From NCBI GenBank assembly GCA_001509375.1, contig LGFT01000017.1, forward strand, positions 1-34,660: a stretch of DNA of 34,660 nt, written 5' to 3'. The notes beneath the pieces were generated by a model. It had not been told where the DNA came from and did not search any database. It saw only the letters and a program-made list of their open reading frames with translations. This document shows, one piece after another, positions 13,271-34,660 of the stretch (position 1 is the stretch's first letter; each line of letters starts with the position of its first letter). Origin of the DNA: Methanothrix harundinacea. GTDB lineage: Archaea; Halobacteriota; Methanosarcinia; Methanotrichales; Methanotrichaceae. Position numbers and translations under genes: made by a program.

Positions 13271-13320
13271 CATTTAAATATAACGTTGATATTTAGACAT
13301 TATAGTACACAATGATACAT
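13271..13320 (+). promoter_or_regulatory. trp operon promoter region
   Basis: ACATTTAAATATAA (13270-13283) is a good archaeal TATA box. Transcription would start near 13303, about 30 bases before the trpD ATG at 13333. Over the expected start lie two copies of ACATTAT (13297-13303 and 13317-13323) 20 bases apart, which could be operator half-sites. The TGTACA box known for TrpY in other methanogens is not clearly present; AGTACAC at 13304 is the closest match. Confidence 0.45.
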
Positions 13321-13332
13321 TATGGTGATCGC

Positions 13333-14358
13333 ATGAATTATCTCCAAAAGGTCGTGGAGGGGGCGGATCTCTCCGTCTCGGAGGCAGAGGCCCTCCTCGG
13401 TGAGGTCTTCGGAGGGGCGACGGACGCCCAGATAGGGGCTCTCCTCATTGCCCTCAAGAAGAAGGGCGAGTCTGTCTCGGAGATCGCGGGGCTCGCCAAG
13501 GCAATGAGGGCCTCGTCGGTCCGAATCAGCCCGCGGGTTTCGGGGCCCCTCGTCGACACCTGCGGAACAGGCGGGGACGGGACGAACACCATCAACGTCA
13601 GCACCGCCGCGGCTATCATCGCCGCCTCCTGCGGAGCCTTTGTGGCAAAGCACGGAAACTATGCCGTCAGCTCCGCCTGCGGAAGCGCCAACGTCCTCTC
13701 GGAGGTGGGGGTCGAAGTCGCCCCAGAGCCCGAGAAGGTGAGGGAGTACATTGAGACCCTGGGGATCGGCTTTTTGCTCGCCCCCATGTTTCACCCCTCC
13801 ATGAAGAGGGTCGCATCTATCAGAAGAGAGCTCGCCATGAGGACGGTCTTCAACATCCTCGGACCTCTTACAAATCCAGCAGGAGCGAGGTTTCAGGTGA
13901 TGGGGGTCTACGATCCGAATCTATGTGAGAGGCTCGCGGCCGCCCTCAAGATTCTGGGGGCTGAGAGGGCGATGGTCGTCCACGGATCGGGGCTGGACGA
14001 GATTACCAATACCGGTCCCACTCTGATATCGGAGCTGAATCGGGGGAGCCTGAAGACCTATACAGTAACCCCCGAGGAGTTCGGCTACCCCAGGACGACC
14101 CTCGGGGAGATCAGGGGAGGAAGCCCCGAGGAGAATGCGAGAAAGCTCGTCGAGATCCTCTTCGGGACAAAAAACCCCGGACGAGATATCGTAGCCATGA
14201 ACTCCGGGGCCGCCCTCTACATCTCGGGGATCGCCGACACTCTATTCGATGGCGCGAGGATGGCGGAGGAAGCGATCGATTCGGGAAGGGCCCTCGATAT
14301 GCTGAAGAGGATGGTATCTGCCTCTGGAAATCCGGAGAAGCTGGAGAGGTTTCTGTGA
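13333..14358 (+). CDS. trpD: Anthranilate phosphoribosyltransferase
   Basis: 341 residues from the ATG at 13333, chosen because GGTGATC precedes it closely; a frame from 13312 adds only seven unlikely residues. TrpD transfers phosphoribose from PRPP to anthranilate. Motifs are intact: VDTCGTGGDGTNTINVST (PRPP loop), AKHGNYAVSSACGSANVL (anthranilate and PRPP contacts), and the metal region FNILGPLTNPAGA. It has the small helical N-terminal domain and alpha/beta core of the family at normal length. It is the first gene of trpDFEGCBA; its TGA overlaps the GTG of trpF. Confidence 0.97.
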   Translation: MNYLQKVVEGADLSVSEAEALLGEVFGGATDAQIGALLIALKKKGESVSEIAGLAKAMRASSVRISPRVSGPLVDTCGTGGDGTNTINVSTAAAIIAASCGAFVAKHGNYAVSSACGSANVLSEVGVEVAPEPEKVREYIETLGIGFLLAPMFHPSMKRVASIRRELAMRTVFNILGPLTNPAGARFQVMGVYDPNLCERLAAALKILGAERAMVVHGSGLDEITNTGPTLISELNRGSLKTYTVTPEEFGYPRTTLGEIRGGSPEENARKLVEILFGTKNPGRDIVAMNSGAALYISGIADTLFDGARMAEEAIDSGRALDMLKRMVSASGNPEKLERFL

Positions 14359-14996
14359 CCAGGGCCAAGATATGCGGGATAAGGGATGCCGGGGCCAGGG
14401 ACGTGGCCGTGGCCGCGGGGGCCGACGCAGTCGGCTTCGTGGTGGAGATCTCCCGGTCTAAAAGGAGCATCGATCGGGGGGAGGCGAGAGGGCTGATCCA
14501 GGGCCTTCCGCCCTTCGTCTCCAGCGTAATCGTGGTGGAGCCCCAGTCCGCCGCGGAGGCGGCGAACCTCGCCCTTGATACTGGGGCCGACGTGATCCAG
14601 ATAAACGACTCATTGAGCTTTGAGGATATGGCGACCCTCAAAAATATGGTGCCCGCGAGGCTGGTGGCTACGGTTCCGGCAAGTCCTGGCGGCTTGAACC
14701 ACGCCCGGCAAATGACCAGGGTCGCCGACGCCCTCCTCATCGATAGCTTCGAAGGAGGAAAGCTCGGTGGGACCGGCACTGTCCACGACTGGAACCTCAG
14801 CTCTGATCTGGTGAGAAACGTCGACGTCCCGTTGATCCTGGCCGGCGGCCTCGATCCCGAGAACGTCGCCGAGGCCATAGAGAAGGTCAGGCCCTATGCT
14901 GTGGACGTATCGTCGGGGGTAGAGACCGATGGGGCAAAGGACCCCGAGAAGATCAAGGCCTTCCTGAAGGAGGTGAAGAGTTGCCATCAGCCGTAG
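14355..14996 (+). CDS. trpF: Phosphoribosylanthranilate isomerase
   Basis: 213 residues in a single TIM barrel. It converts phosphoribosylanthranilate to CdRP. The catalytic Cys is in KICGIRD (residues 5-11) and the catalytic Asp is probably in ALLIDSFEGGKLGGTGTVHDW. Phosphate-binding loops are LAGGLDPENV and AVDVSSGVE near the C-terminus. The GTG start overlaps the trpD stop by four bases (GTGA), implying translational coupling. The gene end overlaps the trpE start by 16 bases. Confidence 0.95.
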   Translation: MTRAKICGIRDAGARDVAVAAGADAVGFVVEISRSKRSIDRGEARGLIQGLPPFVSSVIVVEPQSAAEAANLALDTGADVIQINDSLSFEDMATLKNMVPARLVATVPASPGGLNHARQMTRVADALLIDSFEGGKLGGTGTVHDWNLSSDLVRNVDVPLILAGGLDPENVAEAIEKVRPYAVDVSSGVETDGAKDPEKIKAFLKEVKSCHQP

Positions 14997-16507
14997 CCAC
15001 CGTCTCGGATAGATCGTCGGATGGATTAAAGGTGGGAACAGCCCCCCGCCTCTTCGAGGTATCGGATCTCGTTGATCCTCGGGCACCCCTCAACCTCTAC
15101 TGCGCCCTTCGTCAGGAAAAGTATCCCTTCCTCTTGGAGTCGGTGGAGAAGGCGGGTCAGAGGGCACGCTTCTCCTTCGTAGGGGCAGGTCCCGCTGCGA
15201 TGGTGACGGTTAAGGGACGCAGATTCAAGTTCGAGATCTGCAAGGGTGGCGACGGACTCAATGAAATAATCGGAAGAAGGCTTTGTACCTCCGCCAGGTT
15301 GGACGGAGCTTGTGACGACGGATCCATCTTCGCCGGTGAGATTAGAAAAGGTATGGACCTTTTTGACCTCCTTCGATCCGCTATTCCTGCCGGCGTCAGC
15401 CCCTCCAAATTTGGAAGGCAGGCCTTCCTCGGGGGCGGAATCGGCTACCTCGCCTACGACCTGGTGGGCGAGAGGATCGAGAGGCCCTCAACTTCAGACG
15501 CACCGGACGCGAAGTTCGGGGTATTCGAGGAGAGCTTCGTTTTCGACCATTTAACAGGAAATGTCTGCCTGGCGGTGGCGCCCCTCATCCCCGAAGACGA
15601 CCCAGAACAAATTGGCGCAAAGGCCATAGACCACCTCAGAGACCTGGAGCTGAAGGAGCCCGAGGGCGGAGATCTCACGCCGATATCCTTCGAGTCAGAC
15701 CCTGCAGAGCCCTTCGAGGATGCGGTCCTGAAGGCCAAAGAGCACATTCTCGACGGTGACATATTCCAGGTGGTCTTATCCAGAAGGACTAGGGTTAGGC
15801 TCGGGAATCCCAACCCTGTCCTCCTCTATCAGAGGCTGAGGGAGATCAATCCCAGCCCCTACACCTATATATTCGAGTTCGGAGACGAGGCCCTGGTGGG
15901 GGCTTCTCCCGAGACCCTCTTCAGCCTATATGACCGCGTGGTCACGACAAACCCCATCGCCGGAACCTGCCCTCGGGGCGGGAGCCCCGAAGAGGACGAA
16001 CTCCTCGCTTCAAAGATGCTGGAGGACGAGAAGGAGAGGGCAGAGCACGTGATGCTCGTCGACCTGGGAAGAAACGATGTCCGTTCGGTATCGAGGGCTG
16101 GATCGATTCGAGTGGAGGACTTCATGGCGGTTTTGCGGTACTCTCACGTCCAGCACATCGAGACAACAGTCCGGGGGACCCTACGGGACGAGTGCGATCC
16201 CTTTGATGCCGCGCGGGCCATATTTCCGGCGGGAACTCTATCGGGAGCCCCCAAGATCCGGGCGATGGAGATCATCGACGATCTGGAGGGGACGGGAAGA
16301 GGGATCTACGGCGGGGGCGTCGGCTACTTCTCCGCCGACGGGTCCGCTGACTTCGCCATCACCATCAGAAGCGTCGTGATGAAGGGCGACATTGCAGTCG
16401 TCCAGGCGGGGGCCGGGATAGTCGCCGACTCCGACCCACACAAAGAGTATCTGGAGACTGAGCGGAAGATGGCCGCCATGAAGAGGGCCCTGGGGGTGGA
16501 GCTTTGA
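14981..16507 (+). CDS. trpE: Anthranilate synthase component I
   Basis: 508 residues from TTG 14981, normal for TrpE. With TrpG it makes anthranilate from chorismate and glutamine. The chorismate-binding half carries GDIFQVVLSRR, PSPYTYIFEFGDEALVGASPETL, NPIAGTCPRGGSPEEDE, MLVDLGRNDV, and GTLSGAPKIRAMEIID, which hold the active-site and Mg-binding residues. The N-terminal part (APLNLYCALRQEKYPFLLESV) is the less conserved domain, with the LLES motif typical of feedback binding of tryptophan. The start overlaps trpF by 16 bases and the stop overlaps trpG (TTGA). It is TrpE rather than PabB by its position in the trp operon and the LLES motif. Confidence 0.96.
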   Translation: MPSAVATVSDRSSDGLKVGTAPRLFEVSDLVDPRAPLNLYCALRQEKYPFLLESVEKAGQRARFSFVGAGPAAMVTVKGRRFKFEICKGGDGLNEIIGRRLCTSARLDGACDDGSIFAGEIRKGMDLFDLLRSAIPAGVSPSKFGRQAFLGGGIGYLAYDLVGERIERPSTSDAPDAKFGVFEESFVFDHLTGNVCLAVAPLIPEDDPEQIGAKAIDHLRDLELKEPEGGDLTPISFESDPAEPFEDAVLKAKEHILDGDIFQVVLSRRTRVRLGNPNPVLLYQRLREINPSPYTYIFEFGDEALVGASPETLFSLYDRVVTTNPIAGTCPRGGSPEEDELLASKMLEDEKERAEHVMLVDLGRNDVRSVSRAGSIRVEDFMAVLRYSHVQHIETTVRGTLRDECDPFDAARAIFPAGTLSGAPKIRAMEIIDDLEGTGRGIYGGGVGYFSADGSADFAITIRSVVMKGDIAVVQAGAGIVADSDPHKEYLETERKMAAMKRALGVEL

Positions 16508-17082
16508 CCGGAAAGACGATCCTCTTCATCGATAACCGGGACTCCTTCGTCTGGAACCTGGTCGACTACGTATCCCAGTTCCATCCCGATACTGAGGTGG
16601 TAACTAACCAGATTGAGCCTGCCAGAGTGAGGGAGATCGACCCCAGGGGAATCGTCATCTCGCCTGGGCCGGGCCATCCCGCAAATGCGAAGGATATCGG
16701 CGGCTGCATCGAGATCATGAGGCGGTTTGAGGGGACGCCGATCCTGGGAGTCTGCCTCGGCCACCAGGCGATCAACCTTGCCTATGGGGGGACGATCAAC
16801 AGGACGACCCCCGTCCACGGGAAAGCCTCTGAGATCTTCCACGACGGCCGGGGCGTATTCCGGGGGCTCGATAACCCTCTGAGAGGGGGGCGCTATCACT
16901 CCCTGGCAGTAGAGAGGCTCGCGCCGTCTCTGGGGATAACGGCCATTACCGTCGAAGGGGTGGTCATGGGGGTAAGGCACTGCGGCCTCCCTGTGGAGGG
17001 GGTCCAGTTCCATCCCGAGTCGGTCCTGACACCCGACGGAAAGAGGCTGATCTCCAACTGGCTGGAGGGGCTCGCCCTGTGA
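16504..17082 (+). CDS. trpG: Anthranilate synthase component II, glutamine amidotransferase
   Basis: 192 residues. The class I glutamine amidotransferase triad is present: Cys in ILGVCLGHQAI (about residue 82), and His plus Glu in VQFHPESVLT (about 168-172). The oxyanion-region SPGPGHP lies near residue 53. It supplies ammonia to TrpE. The TTG start overlaps the trpE stop by four bases. Not fused to trpC or trpE. Confidence 0.96.
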   Translation: MTGKTILFIDNRDSFVWNLVDYVSQFHPDTEVVTNQIEPARVREIDPRGIVISPGPGHPANAKDIGGCIEIMRRFEGTPILGVCLGHQAINLAYGGTINRTTPVHGKASEIFHDGRGVFRGLDNPLRGGRYHSLAVERLAPSLGITAITVEGVVMGVRHCGLPVEGVQFHPESVLTPDGKRLISNWLEGLAL

Positions 17083-17873
17083 CCTCCGATGTCGTCAAAG
17101 TGATCCTGAGGGATACGGAGTCGAGGCTGGCGGAACTTTCGAAGCCCGATCCGGGGGCCCGGTTGAAGATCACAGATCCTCGGGATCTCGTGGGCCGGGC
17201 GGAGTACCTCCGATCGAGGGGAGTCACCCCCATCATAGCCGAGATCAAGCCCAGGATCCTGAATAAAACCCTCACCCCTCAGGAGGTGGTCTCTTTCGCC
17301 AAGAACTACGAGGATATGGGGGCCTGCAGCATATCGGTCCTCACCCAGCCGACCTACTTTCTCGGGTCTCTCGAGAACGCCAGGATCGCGAGGAGAGCTG
17401 TCGGCGTTCCCATCCTGAGAAAGGATTTCATCCTGGACGAGAGGCAGCTCGACGAGGTGGAATCGGACCTGGTCCTCCTCATCGCCGCCTTCTCCCATCC
17501 TCTCAATGGGCTGGTGGAGGCTGCCATCTCCAGGAATATGGAGCCTCTGGTGGAGGTACACAACGAAGCTGAGCTGGAAGAAGCCCTGAAGACCGACGCC
17601 CGAATCGTGGGGATAAACAACAGGAATCTTGCGACCCTGGAGGTTGACCTTGGAACCTTCGAGCGGCTGGGGCCGGTGGCCAAGGCCGCAGGCCTCTTCG
17701 TGGTGGCCGAGAGCGGCATGAATTCTCGGGGTGACGTCCTGAGGATGGTGGAGGCCGGGGCCGATGCCCTTCTTGTCGGAACATCTTTGATGGAGGAACC
17801 GAAGCTCCTTTTGGCCCTCAACGGAACGGTCGCCCATGGAGACGGTGCCCTGAAGAGGGCCGAATTATCTTAA
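17079..17873 (+). CDS. trpC: Indole-3-glycerol phosphate synthase
   Basis: 264 residues in a TIM barrel. It closes the indole ring from CdRP. Key elements are PIIAEIKPR (about residue 50, the catalytic Lys), ISVLTQPTYFLGSLE, PILRKDFILDERQLDE (second Lys), LVEVHNEAELEEAL (catalytic Glu), GINNRNLATLEVDL (Asn), and VVAESGMNS (Glu). The usual SPS after KIK... is changed to KPRILNKTL, a normal archaeal variation. The GTG start overlaps the trpG stop (GTGA). Forty-eight bases then separate it from trpB, the only real gap in the operon. Confidence 0.95.
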   Translation: MTSDVVKVILRDTESRLAELSKPDPGARLKITDPRDLVGRAEYLRSRGVTPIIAEIKPRILNKTLTPQEVVSFAKNYEDMGACSISVLTQPTYFLGSLENARIARRAVGVPILRKDFILDERQLDEVESDLVLLIAAFSHPLNGLVEAAISRNMEPLVEVHNEAELEEALKTDARIVGINNRNLATLEVDLGTFERLGPVAKAAGLFVVAESGMNSRGDVLRMVEAGADALLVGTSLMEEPKLLLALNGTVAHGDGALKRAELS

Positions 17874-17921
17874 AACATGAATTACGCTAAATTGTATATT
17901 TATCGGAGAGGATGACAGTTG

Positions 17922-19118
17922 ATGAAGATCACGACGACGTCAAATACCAGGTTTGGGAGGTACGGCGGGCAGTTCGTCCCCGAGACCCTGATGCAGCCCC
18001 TGAAGGAGCTGGCCGAGGCCTACGCCCACCTAAAGGAAGACCCCCAGTTCATGCGGGAGCTGTCAGGCCTTCTTGCAGACTACGCCGGGAGGCCGACCCC
18101 CCTCTACCATGCCCGATCCCTATCCAGGGAGCTCTCTCGGAAGGTCTACCTGAAGAGGGAGGACCTGGTCCACGGCGGTGCCCACAAGCTGAACAACGTC
18201 CTGGGCCAGGGGCTCGTGGCGAAGGAGATGGGAAAGACGAGGCTCATCGCCGAGACCGGAGCGGGCCAGCACGGCGTCGCCGCAGCGATGGTGGGGGCGA
18301 ACCTCGGCCTTGAGACTGAGGTATATATGGGCGAGGTGGACATCGAGCGGCAGAAGATGAACGTCTACCGGATGGAGCTCTTGGGCGCCAAGGTGATCCC
18401 GGTGAAGTCGGGGTCGAGAACCCTCAAGGACTCCATAAACGAGGCCTTGAGAGACTGGGCCGCAAGCTACGAGAACACCCACTACCTGATGGGGACAGTG
18501 GCCGGAGCTCATCCCTACCCCCTGATGGTGAGAGAGCTTCAGAGCGTCATCGGGACCGAGGCGCGGGAGCAGATCCTGGCAGCCGAAGGGAGGCTTCCCG
18601 ACTCCGTTGTCGCCTGCGTCGGCGGTGGGTCCAATGCCATGGGGATCTTCTCGGGCTTCCTGGCGGACGAGACGAAGCTGATCGCCGTCGAGGCGGGAGG
18701 GAGGGGCACGTCCTCTGATGAGAAGATCGCAGACCACGGTGCTTGTCTCAACCTCGGGGAGGAGGGGGTACTCCACGGCGCCATGACTAAGATCCTCCAG
18801 GACCCCTACGGCCAGATCCTCGAGTCCTATTCCGTGGCCGCTGGCCTCGACTATCCAGGGGTCGGGCCGGAGCTCGCCCACCTGGCCGAGATCGGCCGCG
18901 TCACCCCCGCCATCGCCGACGATGAGACCGCCCTGGAGGGGTTCAGGCGTCTCTCGATCCTTGAAGGCATCATCCCGGCCCTGGAGTCGTCTCACGCCGT
19001 TGGCTATGCCCTCAGAAACCCCGACGCCCTCGGAGACCTCGCAATTATCAACCTCTCGGGCCGAGGAGACAAGGATCTCACGACGGTGATGGAGCAAGAG
19101 AGGAGGAGACGAAGATGA
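17922..19118 (+). CDS. trpB: Tryptophan synthase beta chain
   Basis: 398 residues from the ATG at 17922, preceded by GGAGAGGATGAC; a TTG three bases earlier is possible. It is the TrpA-partnered TrpB1 type, with [17 protein letters not shown] at the start. The PLP lysine lies in [11 protein letters not shown] (about residue 87), the catalytic Glu in [11 protein letters not shown], and the phosphate-binding loop is [10 protein letters not shown]. The [11 protein letters not shown] and HAVGYAL segments are typical. It joins indole and serine to tryptophan. A weak AT-rich stretch (GTATATTTAT, around 17894) in the gap before it might be a secondary promoter. Its stop overlaps trpA. Confidence 0.97.
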
Positions 19119-19900
19119 AGCTATCCGAGGCCTTCAAGCGCCGGCCACTTCTTATAGCCTATATCTGCGCTGGCGACCCCTCACCCGAGTCCACACCGGA
19201 GATCGTGGAGCTTCTCGCGAGGGCCGGGGCCGACGTCGTCGAGCTTGGCCTTCCCCATTCCGACCCCATAGCCGACGGTCCCGTCATCCAGGCGGCGGCC
19301 CAGAGAGCGATCGAGGCCGGGATGAACACCAACGTCTACTTTGAGATGGCCTCTCGGATCAGGGCCGACCTGCCCCTCGTATTTATGGGCTACTATAACA
19401 TGATCTACCAGCGGGGCCTCGACAAATTCGCCGGGGACTGCGCGAATAGCGGGATCACCGGCCTCATAGTCCCGGACCTCCCGCCGGAGGAGGCCGGGCC
19501 CCTGAGGGAGGCCTGCGAGAAGGCCGAGGTCGACCTGATATACCTCGTCGCCCCCAACACCCCCGCCGAGAGGATCCCCATAATAGCTGAGAGCTCCAGC
19601 GGCTTTCTCTATCTCGTCGCCCGGGCCGGGGTTACAGGGACGAGGTCCGAGGTCCTCTTGTCCACAAAGGCCCTCATCGAGAGGGTGAAGGCCGACCTCC
19701 CCAAGGCCGTAGGCTTCGGGATATCGACGCCGGAACAGGCGGCTGAGGTGATCAGGGCTGGCGCCGACGCAGCCATAGTAGGGTCCGCCTGCGTCGACCT
19801 GATATCGAAGGGCGACCTTGAGGGTCTGGAGAATCTGATCCGGGGGATGAAGCTCGCGATCCGGGAGGTGAAGCCGATTGAGGCTGTGGCCAGGATCTGA
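19115..19900 (+). CDS. trpA: Tryptophan synthase alpha chain
   Basis: 261 residues, TIM barrel. It splits indole-3-glycerol phosphate and passes indole to TrpB. The catalytic Glu and Asp are both in [19 protein letters not shown] (about 44-62). [30 protein letters not shown] and [10 protein letters not shown] are the family's conserved loops, with the phosphate loop [10 protein letters not shown] near the end. The ATG overlaps the trpB stop by four bases (ATGA). It is the last gene of the operon. Confidence 0.97.
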
Positions 19901-31994: not shown

Positions 31995-33257
31995 ATGATC
32001 CCTTGCGTCCTGGTCGCGGGAACCAAAAGCGGTGTTGGCAAGACCACGGTGGTCTTGGGCCTCCTCGCGGCCCTCAGGAGGCGGGGCTTTGAGGTTGCGC
32101 CCTTCAAGGTGGGGCCCGACTTCATCGACCCCACTCACCACACCGCCATCTGCGAGAGAGCTTCAAGAAACCTCGACACCTTCATGATGGGCGAGGAGGG
32201 CGTCCGGCGATCTTTCGCGAAAGGCGTCGAGGGCGCGGATGTAGCCGTCATCGAGGGGGTGATGGGCCTCTACGACGGCCTCGACGCAACGGAGGTCGCC
32301 TCCTCCGCTGCCGTGGCCAAGGCCCTGGGAGCCCCGGTCCTTTTGGTCATAAATGTCCACGGGACCTCTCGGAGCGCGGCGGCCATGGCCCTCGGCTACG
32401 CGAAGTTCGACCCTGAAGTTGAGATCGCGGGCCTCATCTTGAACAGGGTCGGAAGCGAGCGCCACCTCACCCTCCTGCAGGAGGCGCTAAAGCCCCTGGG
32501 CATCCCGATCCTGGCCGCGCTTCCGAGGAAAAGCGAGATCTCGCTTAAAAGCCGCCACCTCGGGTTGACGATGGGGTTTGAAGGCCATCACGACCTGGAC
32601 GCCCTCGCCGACTTCGTCGAGGAGAACGCCGACCTCGACTGGATCCTCAAGCTCGGTTGCAATGTCCCCCCTTCCGAGCCGCTCCCAGAGTTTGGAGGAG
32701 ACCGGATCAAAATCGGGGTAGCATACGATGAGGCCTTCTGTTTCTACTACCAGGAGAACTTCGACGAGCTTCGAAGGCTGGGCGCTGAGATCGAGTTCTT
32801 CAGCCCCATGTGCGACCCTTTGCCGGACGTTCAGGGCCTCTACCTAGGCGGCGGCTACCCTGAGCTCTACGCCGAGGCGCTGGAGAGATCCCAAACCCGC
32901 AGCGAGATCAAAAAGGCCGCCGAAAATGGGATGCCGATCTACGGCGAGTGCGGCGGCTTGATGTACCTCTGCGAATCGGTGGTCTCAAAGGACGGGGATT
33001 CGGAGAACAAGATGGCCGGAATCCTCCCCGCATCCACCACGATGACCGGGAGGCTCCAGGCCCTCGGCTACGTCGAGGGGGACGTCGTCGGCGAAAATTC
33101 CGTCGTCGAGAGGGGGCGAGTCATCAGAGGTCACGAGTTCCACTACTCGAAGATGGACTGCGAAAAATGGAGTTCAAGACGTTTGCAGCTCATCTCCGCG
33201 GATCATGCCTCTCCTCAGAGTGATGAAAGACCTTTGAGATATCTTGGTCAGATCTGA
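31995..33257 (+). CDS. cfbB: CfbB/CbiA a,c-diamide synthase, C-terminus altered
   Basis: 420 residues from ATG 31995 with GAGGATC upstream. It amidates two acetate side chains of either Ni-sirohydrochlorin (coenzyme F430, CfbB) or cobyrinate (cobamide, CbiA); the two are close, and the symbol is a best guess for a methanogen. Visible are Walker A GTKSGVGKTT (9-18), FKVGPDFIDP, VIEGVMGLYDG, and the amidotransferase Cys in YGECGGLMYL (about 318). The family's second part HEFHYS is present at about 379, but after MDCEK (near 390) the sequence becomes WSSRRLQLISADHAS, unlike the family, and ends about 30 residues later. The end of the window repeats the HEFHYS region exactly. So this copy is probably truncated and possibly inactive. 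Confidence 0.85.
   Translation: MIPCVLVAGTKSGVGKTTVVLGLLAALRRRGFEVAPFKVGPDFIDPTHHTAICERASRNLDTFMMGEEGVRRSFAKGVEGADVAVIEGVMGLYDGLDATEVASSAAVAKALGAPVLLVINVHGTSRSAAAMALGYAKFDPEVEIAGLILNRVGSERHLTLLQEALKPLGIPILAALPRKSEISLKSRHLGLTMGFEGHHDLDALADFVEENADLDWILKLGCNVPPSEPLPEFGGDRIKIGVAYDEAFCFYYQENFDELRRLGAEIEFFSPMCDPLPDVQGLYLGGGYPELYAEALERSQTRSEIKKAAENGMPIYGECGGLMYLCESVVSKDGDSENKMAGILPASTTMTGRLQALGYVEGDVVGENSVVERGRVIRGHEFHYSKMDCEKWSSRRLQLISADHASPQSDERPLRYLGQI
33064..33162 (+). repeat. Long direct repeat, copy 1 (in cfbB)
   Basis: These 99 bases are identical to 34562-34660, offset 1498. The match starts at TCGGCTACG (the base before differs) and runs to the last base of the window, so its true right border cannot be seen. 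Confidence 0.97.
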
Positions 33258-33280
33258 GTTTCGGGCACCTAGCACAAAAA

Positions 33281-33363
33281 TGGCAGGTCGTGTGGGTGAG
33301 TCGCTGAAACTTGGGCTTTATTTCAGTGGCACTCACCACGACCAAATAGAGAGAGAAGTGCCA
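33281..33363. repeat. Nested inverted repeat, possible bidirectional terminator or element end
   Basis: Three nested arms: TGGCA (33281) with TGCCA (33359-33363); GGTCGTGTGGGTGAGT (33286-33301) with ACTCACCACGACC (33331-33343), a 13-bp stem with a three-base bulge; and CTGAAA (33304-33309) with TTTCAG (33321-33326). It lies between the truncated cfbB and the convergent secreted-protein gene. Confidence 0.7.
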
Positions 33364-33378
33364 AAATATTCTTCGCCT

Positions 33379-34167
33379 CTAAGGTACAGTCTGGCCGGGC
33401 TCTAGTACAGCCTCATACCTTTCTGTGATCACAGATCCATTACCTGCAACTGCATGAACATATAATGATTCGTTAGGTGCGGTTTGGCCGGGCTCTAGTA
33501 CAGCCTCATACCTCTCTGTGACCACAGATCCATTACCTGCAACTGCATGAACATATAATGATTCGTTAGGTGCGGTTTGGCCGGGCTCTGGTACAAGCGC
33601 TATACTCTCCAATATTTCATACAATGGCATTGGCATATCGAGTTCATGGTCACCAGGACGCATCTCGATGATCGGATATTTACCTTCGAATATGGCATAC
33701 ACTCCTAGGAACTTATCTGGCAATGCCCAGATCAAAGTCCATTCGCGGCCCTCATTACGTGAGGTAAGAAGCAGATCTTGTTCCCATATCCGGGTCAACG
33801 AGCCACCAACTTCACTGCTGTTGAGAACGATGCTGCGGTAAAAATTTTCCAGGAAGTTGGCTTCGTAGTGAGGATTGTCTCGATATATGTTCCTGATCCA
33901 TGCATATTGAGGAATCTCTATAAGATCTATCCGGATGGTAGATATGCTATCTGACAAAGTTATCTTCGTGTCGAATATGGAACTGCCATCGGACTGCGTG
34001 CCATTAATTTGCTGATCATCGGATATAGTCCAGTTAGCTGGAATTTGGAAGGCTATGCCATGTCCACTGTATTCAGTAGCCGAAATTGGCAATGCTACCA
34101 AAACTGAACATAATATGGCTACCAACACCCCTGTAACTTTTATCTTCACGCTACCAATCTGTTTCAT
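33379..34167 (-). CDS. Secreted protein with 31-residue C-terminal repeats
   Basis: 262 residues from ATG 34167, preceded by GGAGTGG; the open frame extends 13 codons further up. Residues 1-30 are a clear signal peptide (IKVTGVLVAILCSVLVALPISA). The mature domain, HGIAFQIPANWTISDDQ...ILESIALVPEPG, resembles small secreted PsbP-like domains with an 'F.IP..W' start (similarity inferred by eye). It ends in two full 31-residue repeats beginning EPGQTAPNESLYVHAVAGNG plus a third partial one ending at the stop. The AT content is higher than in host genes. It lies inside the segment that separates the two cfbB repeat copies. Confidence 0.7.
   Translation of the reverse strand: MKQIGSVKIKVTGVLVAILCSVLVALPISATEYSGHGIAFQIPANWTISDDQQINGTQSDGSSIFDTKITLSDSISTIRIDLIEIPQYAWIRNIYRDNPHYEANFLENFYRSIVLNSSEVGGSLTRIWEQDLLLTSRNEGREWTLIWALPDKFLGVYAIFEGKYPIIEMRPGDHELDMPMPLYEILESIALVPEPGQTAPNESLYVHAVAGNGSVVTERYEAVLEPGQTAPNESLYVHAVAGNGSVITERYEAVLEPGQTVP
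33392..33594. repeat. 93-bp tandem repeat in the secreted-protein gene
   Basis: Units start at 33392, 33485 and 33578 (TGGCCGGGCTCT...), spaced exactly 93 bases. The first two differ at only a few positions; the third is a partial unit of about 17 bases. The near identity shows recent duplication. Confidence 0.95.
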
Positions 34168-34320
34168 TGAAGTCCACTCCAGAGAAGTACGTCTCAGCCA
34201 ATACATATAAACTTATTGGATGGGTGAGGGGGATGGAATATTCCAAAACTTTTGACTATATATGCAAAGACTTCTTCTTAACAAAGCAAAAGTTATATAT
34301 GTAGGAATGATGTACCATAG

Positions 34321-34557
34321 TTTGGCGGAACTGAGTTCCGACTAAAGCAGAATTCTCCGATATTGCTTTTAGATGAAGTAACAAAATCTATAGATATGGG
34401 GTCTAGGAGGTCGATTAACGAGGTTATTAAGAGTTTAAAAGGTAAAAAAACAATTATAATAGTCACTCATAATATAAATGAAATTGAATATAATAATAAT
34501 ATAATATATATGGGGCACGAAAATCATCGCATAGAGCATAATAATCATCATATTTGA
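34321..34557 (+). pseudogene. ABC ATPase C-terminal fragment
   Basis: The open frame reads FGGTEFRLKQNSPILLLDEVTKSIDMGSRRSINEVIKSL, then TIIIVTHNINEIE. SPILLLDEVTKSID is a Walker B plus D-loop and IIVTHN the H-loop of an ABC ATPase, with a degraded signature before it. Walker A and the first half are missing and there is a stop at 34318. Extremely AT-rich, unlike the host, so foreign and broken. It ends five bases before the cfbB repeat. Confidence 0.65.
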
Positions 34558-34561
34558 TAGG

Positions 34562-34660
34562 TCGGCTACGTCGAGGGGGACGTCGTCGGCGAAAATTCCG
34601 TCGTCGAGAGGGGGCGAGTCATCAGAGGTCACGAGTTCCACTACTCGAAGATGGACTGCG
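34562..34660 (+). repeat. Long direct repeat, copy 2 (cfbB fragment at window end)
   Basis: Exact copy of 33064-33162. It codes for the cfbB segment GYVEGDVVGE...HEFHYSKMDC and is cut by the window edge. The normal 3' end of cfbB may continue beyond. Confidence 0.97.

Follow-up and report, generated by a model that had tools for sequence, protein, structure and literature searches.

A 99-bp repeat at the end of a Methanothrix harundinacea contig is very probably an assembler k-mer overlap and not a duplication around an insertion in cbiA

De Bruijn graph assemblers of the SPAdes, MEGAHIT and IDBA-UD type produce contigs whose ends overlap at branch vertices, and these terminal overlaps are identical over exactly the length k and never longer. 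A direct repeat flanking an extra segment is also the form taken by the target-site duplication of an inserted element, and 99 bp is far above the usual target duplications of insertion elements. A literature search on contig-end overlaps returned nothing usable. Here, we report on a window of 34,660 nucleotides from M. harundinacea, in which the last 99 bases repeat a stretch of an upstream gene for the a,c-diamidation of a tetrapyrrole. The window is the complete contig C29 (G000:C29:1-34660) of a draft assembly of 118 contigs and 2.38 Mb, so that the end of the window is also the end of the contig and the second copy of the repeat constitutes its final 99 bases. The identity between 34562-34660 and 33064-33162, first noticed in a preliminary description of this DNA, was confirmed without a single difference between the copies, while the base immediately to the left of each copy differs (C versus G). 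A match of this length cannot be produced by chance. The identity is real in the file, yet it is a signature of the assembly and not a biological one. As in the usual terminal overlaps, it has exactly the length k, but the partner copy is here located inside the same contig and not at the end of another. The features of this region are collected in Table 1.

Table 1. Features in the terminal part of contig C29 and the evidence for each.
Feature	Position	Strand	Evidence
cbiA/cobB, first 389 codons, genuine part	31995-33162	+	NF002204, GATase_3, alignment to relatives
First 99-mer copy, proposed branch k-mer (vertex) in the assembly graph	33064-33162	+	Repeated k-mers
1399-bp tail after the branch k-mer, probable misjoin or spurious loop	33163-34561		Low GC, no DNA match elsewhere
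Imperfect hairpin	33286-33347		DNA fold z = -3.86; matches in G012 and G020
275-aa secreted-type ORF with 31-aa repeats	33379-34206	-	No known family
ABC exporter C-terminal shard, Walker B onward	about 34345-34557	+	Identity to open frames in G020, G022 and G015
Second 99-mer copy, end of contig C29, assembler overlap	34562-34660	+	Contig-end overlaps

CfbB and CobB carry out similar amidations on different tetrapyrroles (PMC7242693), and the two families are separated by curated models. The gene in the window had been named as cfbB, the coenzyme-F430 gene encoding Ni-sirohydrochlorin a,c-diamide synthase, and this name proved wrong: the truncated gene scored 431 bits against the CfbB model NF033195 and thus missed the curated cut-off of 560. 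Against the NCBIfam CobB equivalog model NF002204 it scored 484 bits, well past the cut-off of 254, and it has the P-loop and GATase_3 domains of CbiA/CobB. By these matches the gene is cbiA/cobB, an ordinary vitamin-B12 gene for cobyrinate a,c-diamide synthase. Intact relatives of the gene (L006 and L010) likewise fall short of the NF033195 cut-off, at 478 bits. A paralogue on contig C114 reaches 634 bits against the same model, and the true cfbB is intact there. It is positioned directly 3' of a NifH-like ORF of the cfbC type, and the two (L136:14550-16732) make up the genome's F430 gene pair. The cbiA of the window differs from described CbiA/CobB in being cut after codon 389, within GATase_3, such that the last approximately 55 codons and the C-terminal part of that domain are missing from the contig. 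The GATase_3 match stops at profile position 153 of 196, and that of an intact relative reaches 193. Searches of the whole own genome at both protein and DNA level did not find the 3' end of cbiA or the corresponding C-terminus.

The length of the repeat was compared with the repeats found throughout the assembly. The k-mer count covered 1.99 Mb, apart from the middle parts of long contigs (about 0.36 Mb) and 16 contigs; both ends of nearly all contigs were compared, and searches within the own genome spanned the whole assembly. Repeated k-mers numbered 72 at k = 98, 36 at k = 99 and only 2 at k = 100, and no 105-mer was repeated in the 1.99 Mb read. Exact terminal overlaps between contigs clustered at 99 bp and none was longer. 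The majority of the repeated 99-mers (29/36) were confined to contig ends, and a repeated 99-mer was borne by 63 of the 199 readable ends. Among the seven others, one is the cbiA case itself, shared by the end and the interior of C29, one is a 99-bp pair inside C94, and three stem from an internal 101-bp repeat in C31, which also gives rise to both repeated 100-mers. The remaining two are the end of C115, found as exactly 99 bp inside C52, and the start of C57, found as exactly 99 bp inside C106; these ends thus also have internal partners, although, unlike in C29, in a different contig, and they reveal that contigs run through branch k-mers in this assembly. A constant length at many ends, (k+1)-mers that are hardly ever repeated and a copy at the contig terminus, all expected of assembler overlaps, were found together. 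The pattern is that of a de Bruijn graph assembly with k = 99, or with k = 100 and overlaps of k-1. The technical alternative raised in the preliminary description, a contig overlap with 99 as the k-mer size, is strongly supported by the dozens of ends that overlap by this length.

Comparison with relatives places the break at the same nucleotide. Alignments to related genes extend to position 33162 and not beyond, and identity over the next 40 bases is at noise level, 22–28%, in four comparable relatives; this 40-base comparison excludes L007 and L010, both of which are covered by the BLAST alignment. In those family relatives whose gene end could be assessed, cbiA is uninterrupted and has a normal C-terminus, extending about 55 residues past the equivalent of 33162 (of the type ARDARFAYRFRRGKGI...), and the tail is absent from all of them, leaving an empty site. 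In three genomes of the same genus (G004, G006 and G008) a gene of the FMN-reductase type begins only a few bases downstream of the cbiA stop codon, and the sequence after the stop codon matches contig C61 of the own genome from its first base over about 1.28 kb with 80–84% identity. C61 starts five bases inside the homologue of this FMN-reductase-type gene, and the equivalents of 33162 and C61:1 lie 178 bp apart in all three genomes. It appears from this synteny that the chromosome after 33162 continues into C61, about 178 bp away. Contig C36, which matches the downstream sequence in L006 (G002), was set aside as the continuation on account of a different gene order, the three relatives indicating C61. 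The proposal to extend the sequence past 34660 and look for the intact 3' end was thereby answered in part: a likely continuation was recovered, but the 3' end of cbiA is absent from the bin, and hence the normal path past 33162 is not seen directly in the own genome. C61 as the continuation would also be compatible with a real insertion.

We find it very probable that the apparent duplication arose as a k-mer overlap in a de Bruijn assembly at k = 99 and that the tail was joined at a branch k-mer of cbiA. The observations behind this reading are the k = 99 signature, the exact point (33162) at which the homologues depart and C61 as the natural continuation. The 99-mer at 33064-33162 would then be a branch vertex inside cbiA, from which the correct path would lead into C61 through some 178 bp made up of the last 55 codons of cbiA, its stop codon and the beginning of the gene that follows. 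The contig would instead have been extended or joined into the side sequence 33163-34561, whose far end would lead back into that branch k-mer, the point at which the contig ends. The tail would then probably be a spurious loop or false join that does not reside in cbiA, with a chimeric fragment or the DNA of another strain as its possible source. The piece missing between cbiA and C61 would form a contig only some hundreds of bases long, smaller than any in the bin (minimum 2,155 bp), and would have been lost in binning. One observation counts against a simple form of this explanation: the shared stretch has a sharp limit on either side at exactly 99 bp, set by the C/G difference on the left and by the departure of the homologues on the right, and a simple branch on one side would not need both limits. 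The two limits would be most easily accommodated if each of the cbiA contig and the tail ended in the vertex and they were joined thereafter.

The tail itself is of heterogeneous composition. Its 1399 bp have a GC content of 41.8% against a genome mean of 56.6%, within the lowest 2% of the genome, and its DNA matched nothing else in the own genome, apart from a repeat inside the tail itself, and nothing in plasmid or phage records. The three elements previously recognized between the copies, a secreted repeat protein, an inverted repeat and an AT-rich ABC-ATPase fragment, are all present. The 275-aa ORF on the minus strand has a signal peptide-type start and approximately three C-terminal repeats of 31 aa, corresponding to a 93-bp DNA repeat. 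One weak relative was found in G014, with 36% identity over 85 aa, and no confirmed relative was found in genome-contig or viral-contig collections. The hairpin is stable though imperfect and has matches of 91–92% in G012 and G020, which represent another genus of the family. Its arms recur several times in G012 (C139, C144 and C145) and in G020 (C104) with about 60 extra bases between them, and the hairpin is possibly a small mobile repeat. The ABC-ATPase shard, a C-terminal piece of 69 residues with about 28% GC, is cut at both ends and shares 69%, 64% and 66% identity with open frames of 574–592 aa in G020, G022 and G015, respectively, all from other genera. An ABC_membrane domain (PF00664) was not detected anywhere in the own genome, and the bin therefore offers no parent gene for the shard. 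The ORFs of the tail include neither a transposase nor an integrase. The tail is most likely a patchwork side path joined at the branch k-mer, by misjoin or as a spurious loop; it may derive from a chimeric fragment, another strain or a genuine accessory segment of this organism.

A real 1.4-kb insertion in cbiA with a 99-bp direct duplication, carried by all or part of the population, was the main claim of the preliminary description and is not supported by a repeat that has the length of the genome-wide assembler overlap; we regard it as quite improbable. In its favour, the contig takes this form in the file, the tail looks archaeal, with relatives of the ABC shard and the hairpin in the same family, and cbiA may be dispensable where cobamides are salvaged. 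However, the duplication would need to be precisely as long as the assembler k, since with a shorter duplication the assembler would read through into the rest of cbiA and with a longer one the shared stretch would exceed 99 bp. Biologically, the picture arises only when the repeat is exactly k long, which makes the insertion unlikely, whereas contig ends give it by construction. The arrangement resembles a target-site duplication in the direct repeat that flanks an extra segment, but differs in that the 99 bp equal k and that the segment is devoid of a transposase or integrase. Furthermore, the two copies have not diverged at any position, the insertion is absent from all relatives examined, and the tail holds a gene shard truncated at either end. 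There is accordingly little chance that an archaeal accessory segment was inserted in cbiA, or exists as a 1.5-kb circle, with 99 bp matching k by coincidence. The occurrence of weak relatives of the parts of the tail in other genera of the family could also mean that a strain variant, from a different archaeon within the family, was merged with this genome at a shared k-mer. This is highly unlikely, as it still needs identity to cbiA over exactly k with non-cbiA sequence on both sides, and only the origin of the tail sets it apart from the assembler-overlap explanation. A circle of 1498 bp (33064-34561), with 99 bp in common with cbiA and forming a self-loop in the graph, is scarcely credible, for although the identical 99-bp ends of 33064-34660 would be the usual mark of a circular contig at k = 99, the circle would be without a replication gene, would need to have precisely k bases in common with a chromosomal gene and has no match among plasmid or phage records.

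With the assembler overlap as the preferred explanation, exact repeats of the assembler k at contig ends should not be taken as target-site duplications, and the last approximately 1.5 kb of this contig should not be annotated as an interruption of cbiA. If the insertion were true, it would amount to a strain-level loss of cobyrinate amidation, which would be of modest interest.

Other contig ends of this assembly share shorter sequences. A terminal stretch of 92–98 bp, ending in GCTAAACACATAC, is common to eight contig ends of G000, namely the starts of C47, C38, C21, C11, C13, C46 and C87 and the end of C47 (loci L069, L060, L044, L034, L036, L068, L109 and L156). A second group ends similarly in GCTAAACACGTAC, at the starts of C5, C107 and C16, the end of C11 and, in part, the end of C97. 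Both groups resemble the termini of two related mobile elements, present in multiple copies, at which the assembly breaks. A run of 94 N bases at C73:51480-51573, in an otherwise gap-free contig, may be a scaffold gap. In the window, positions 13312-19900 harbour an apparently complete tryptophan operon in the order trpD, trpF, trpE, trpG, trpC, trpB and trpA, as read from inspection of the translations.
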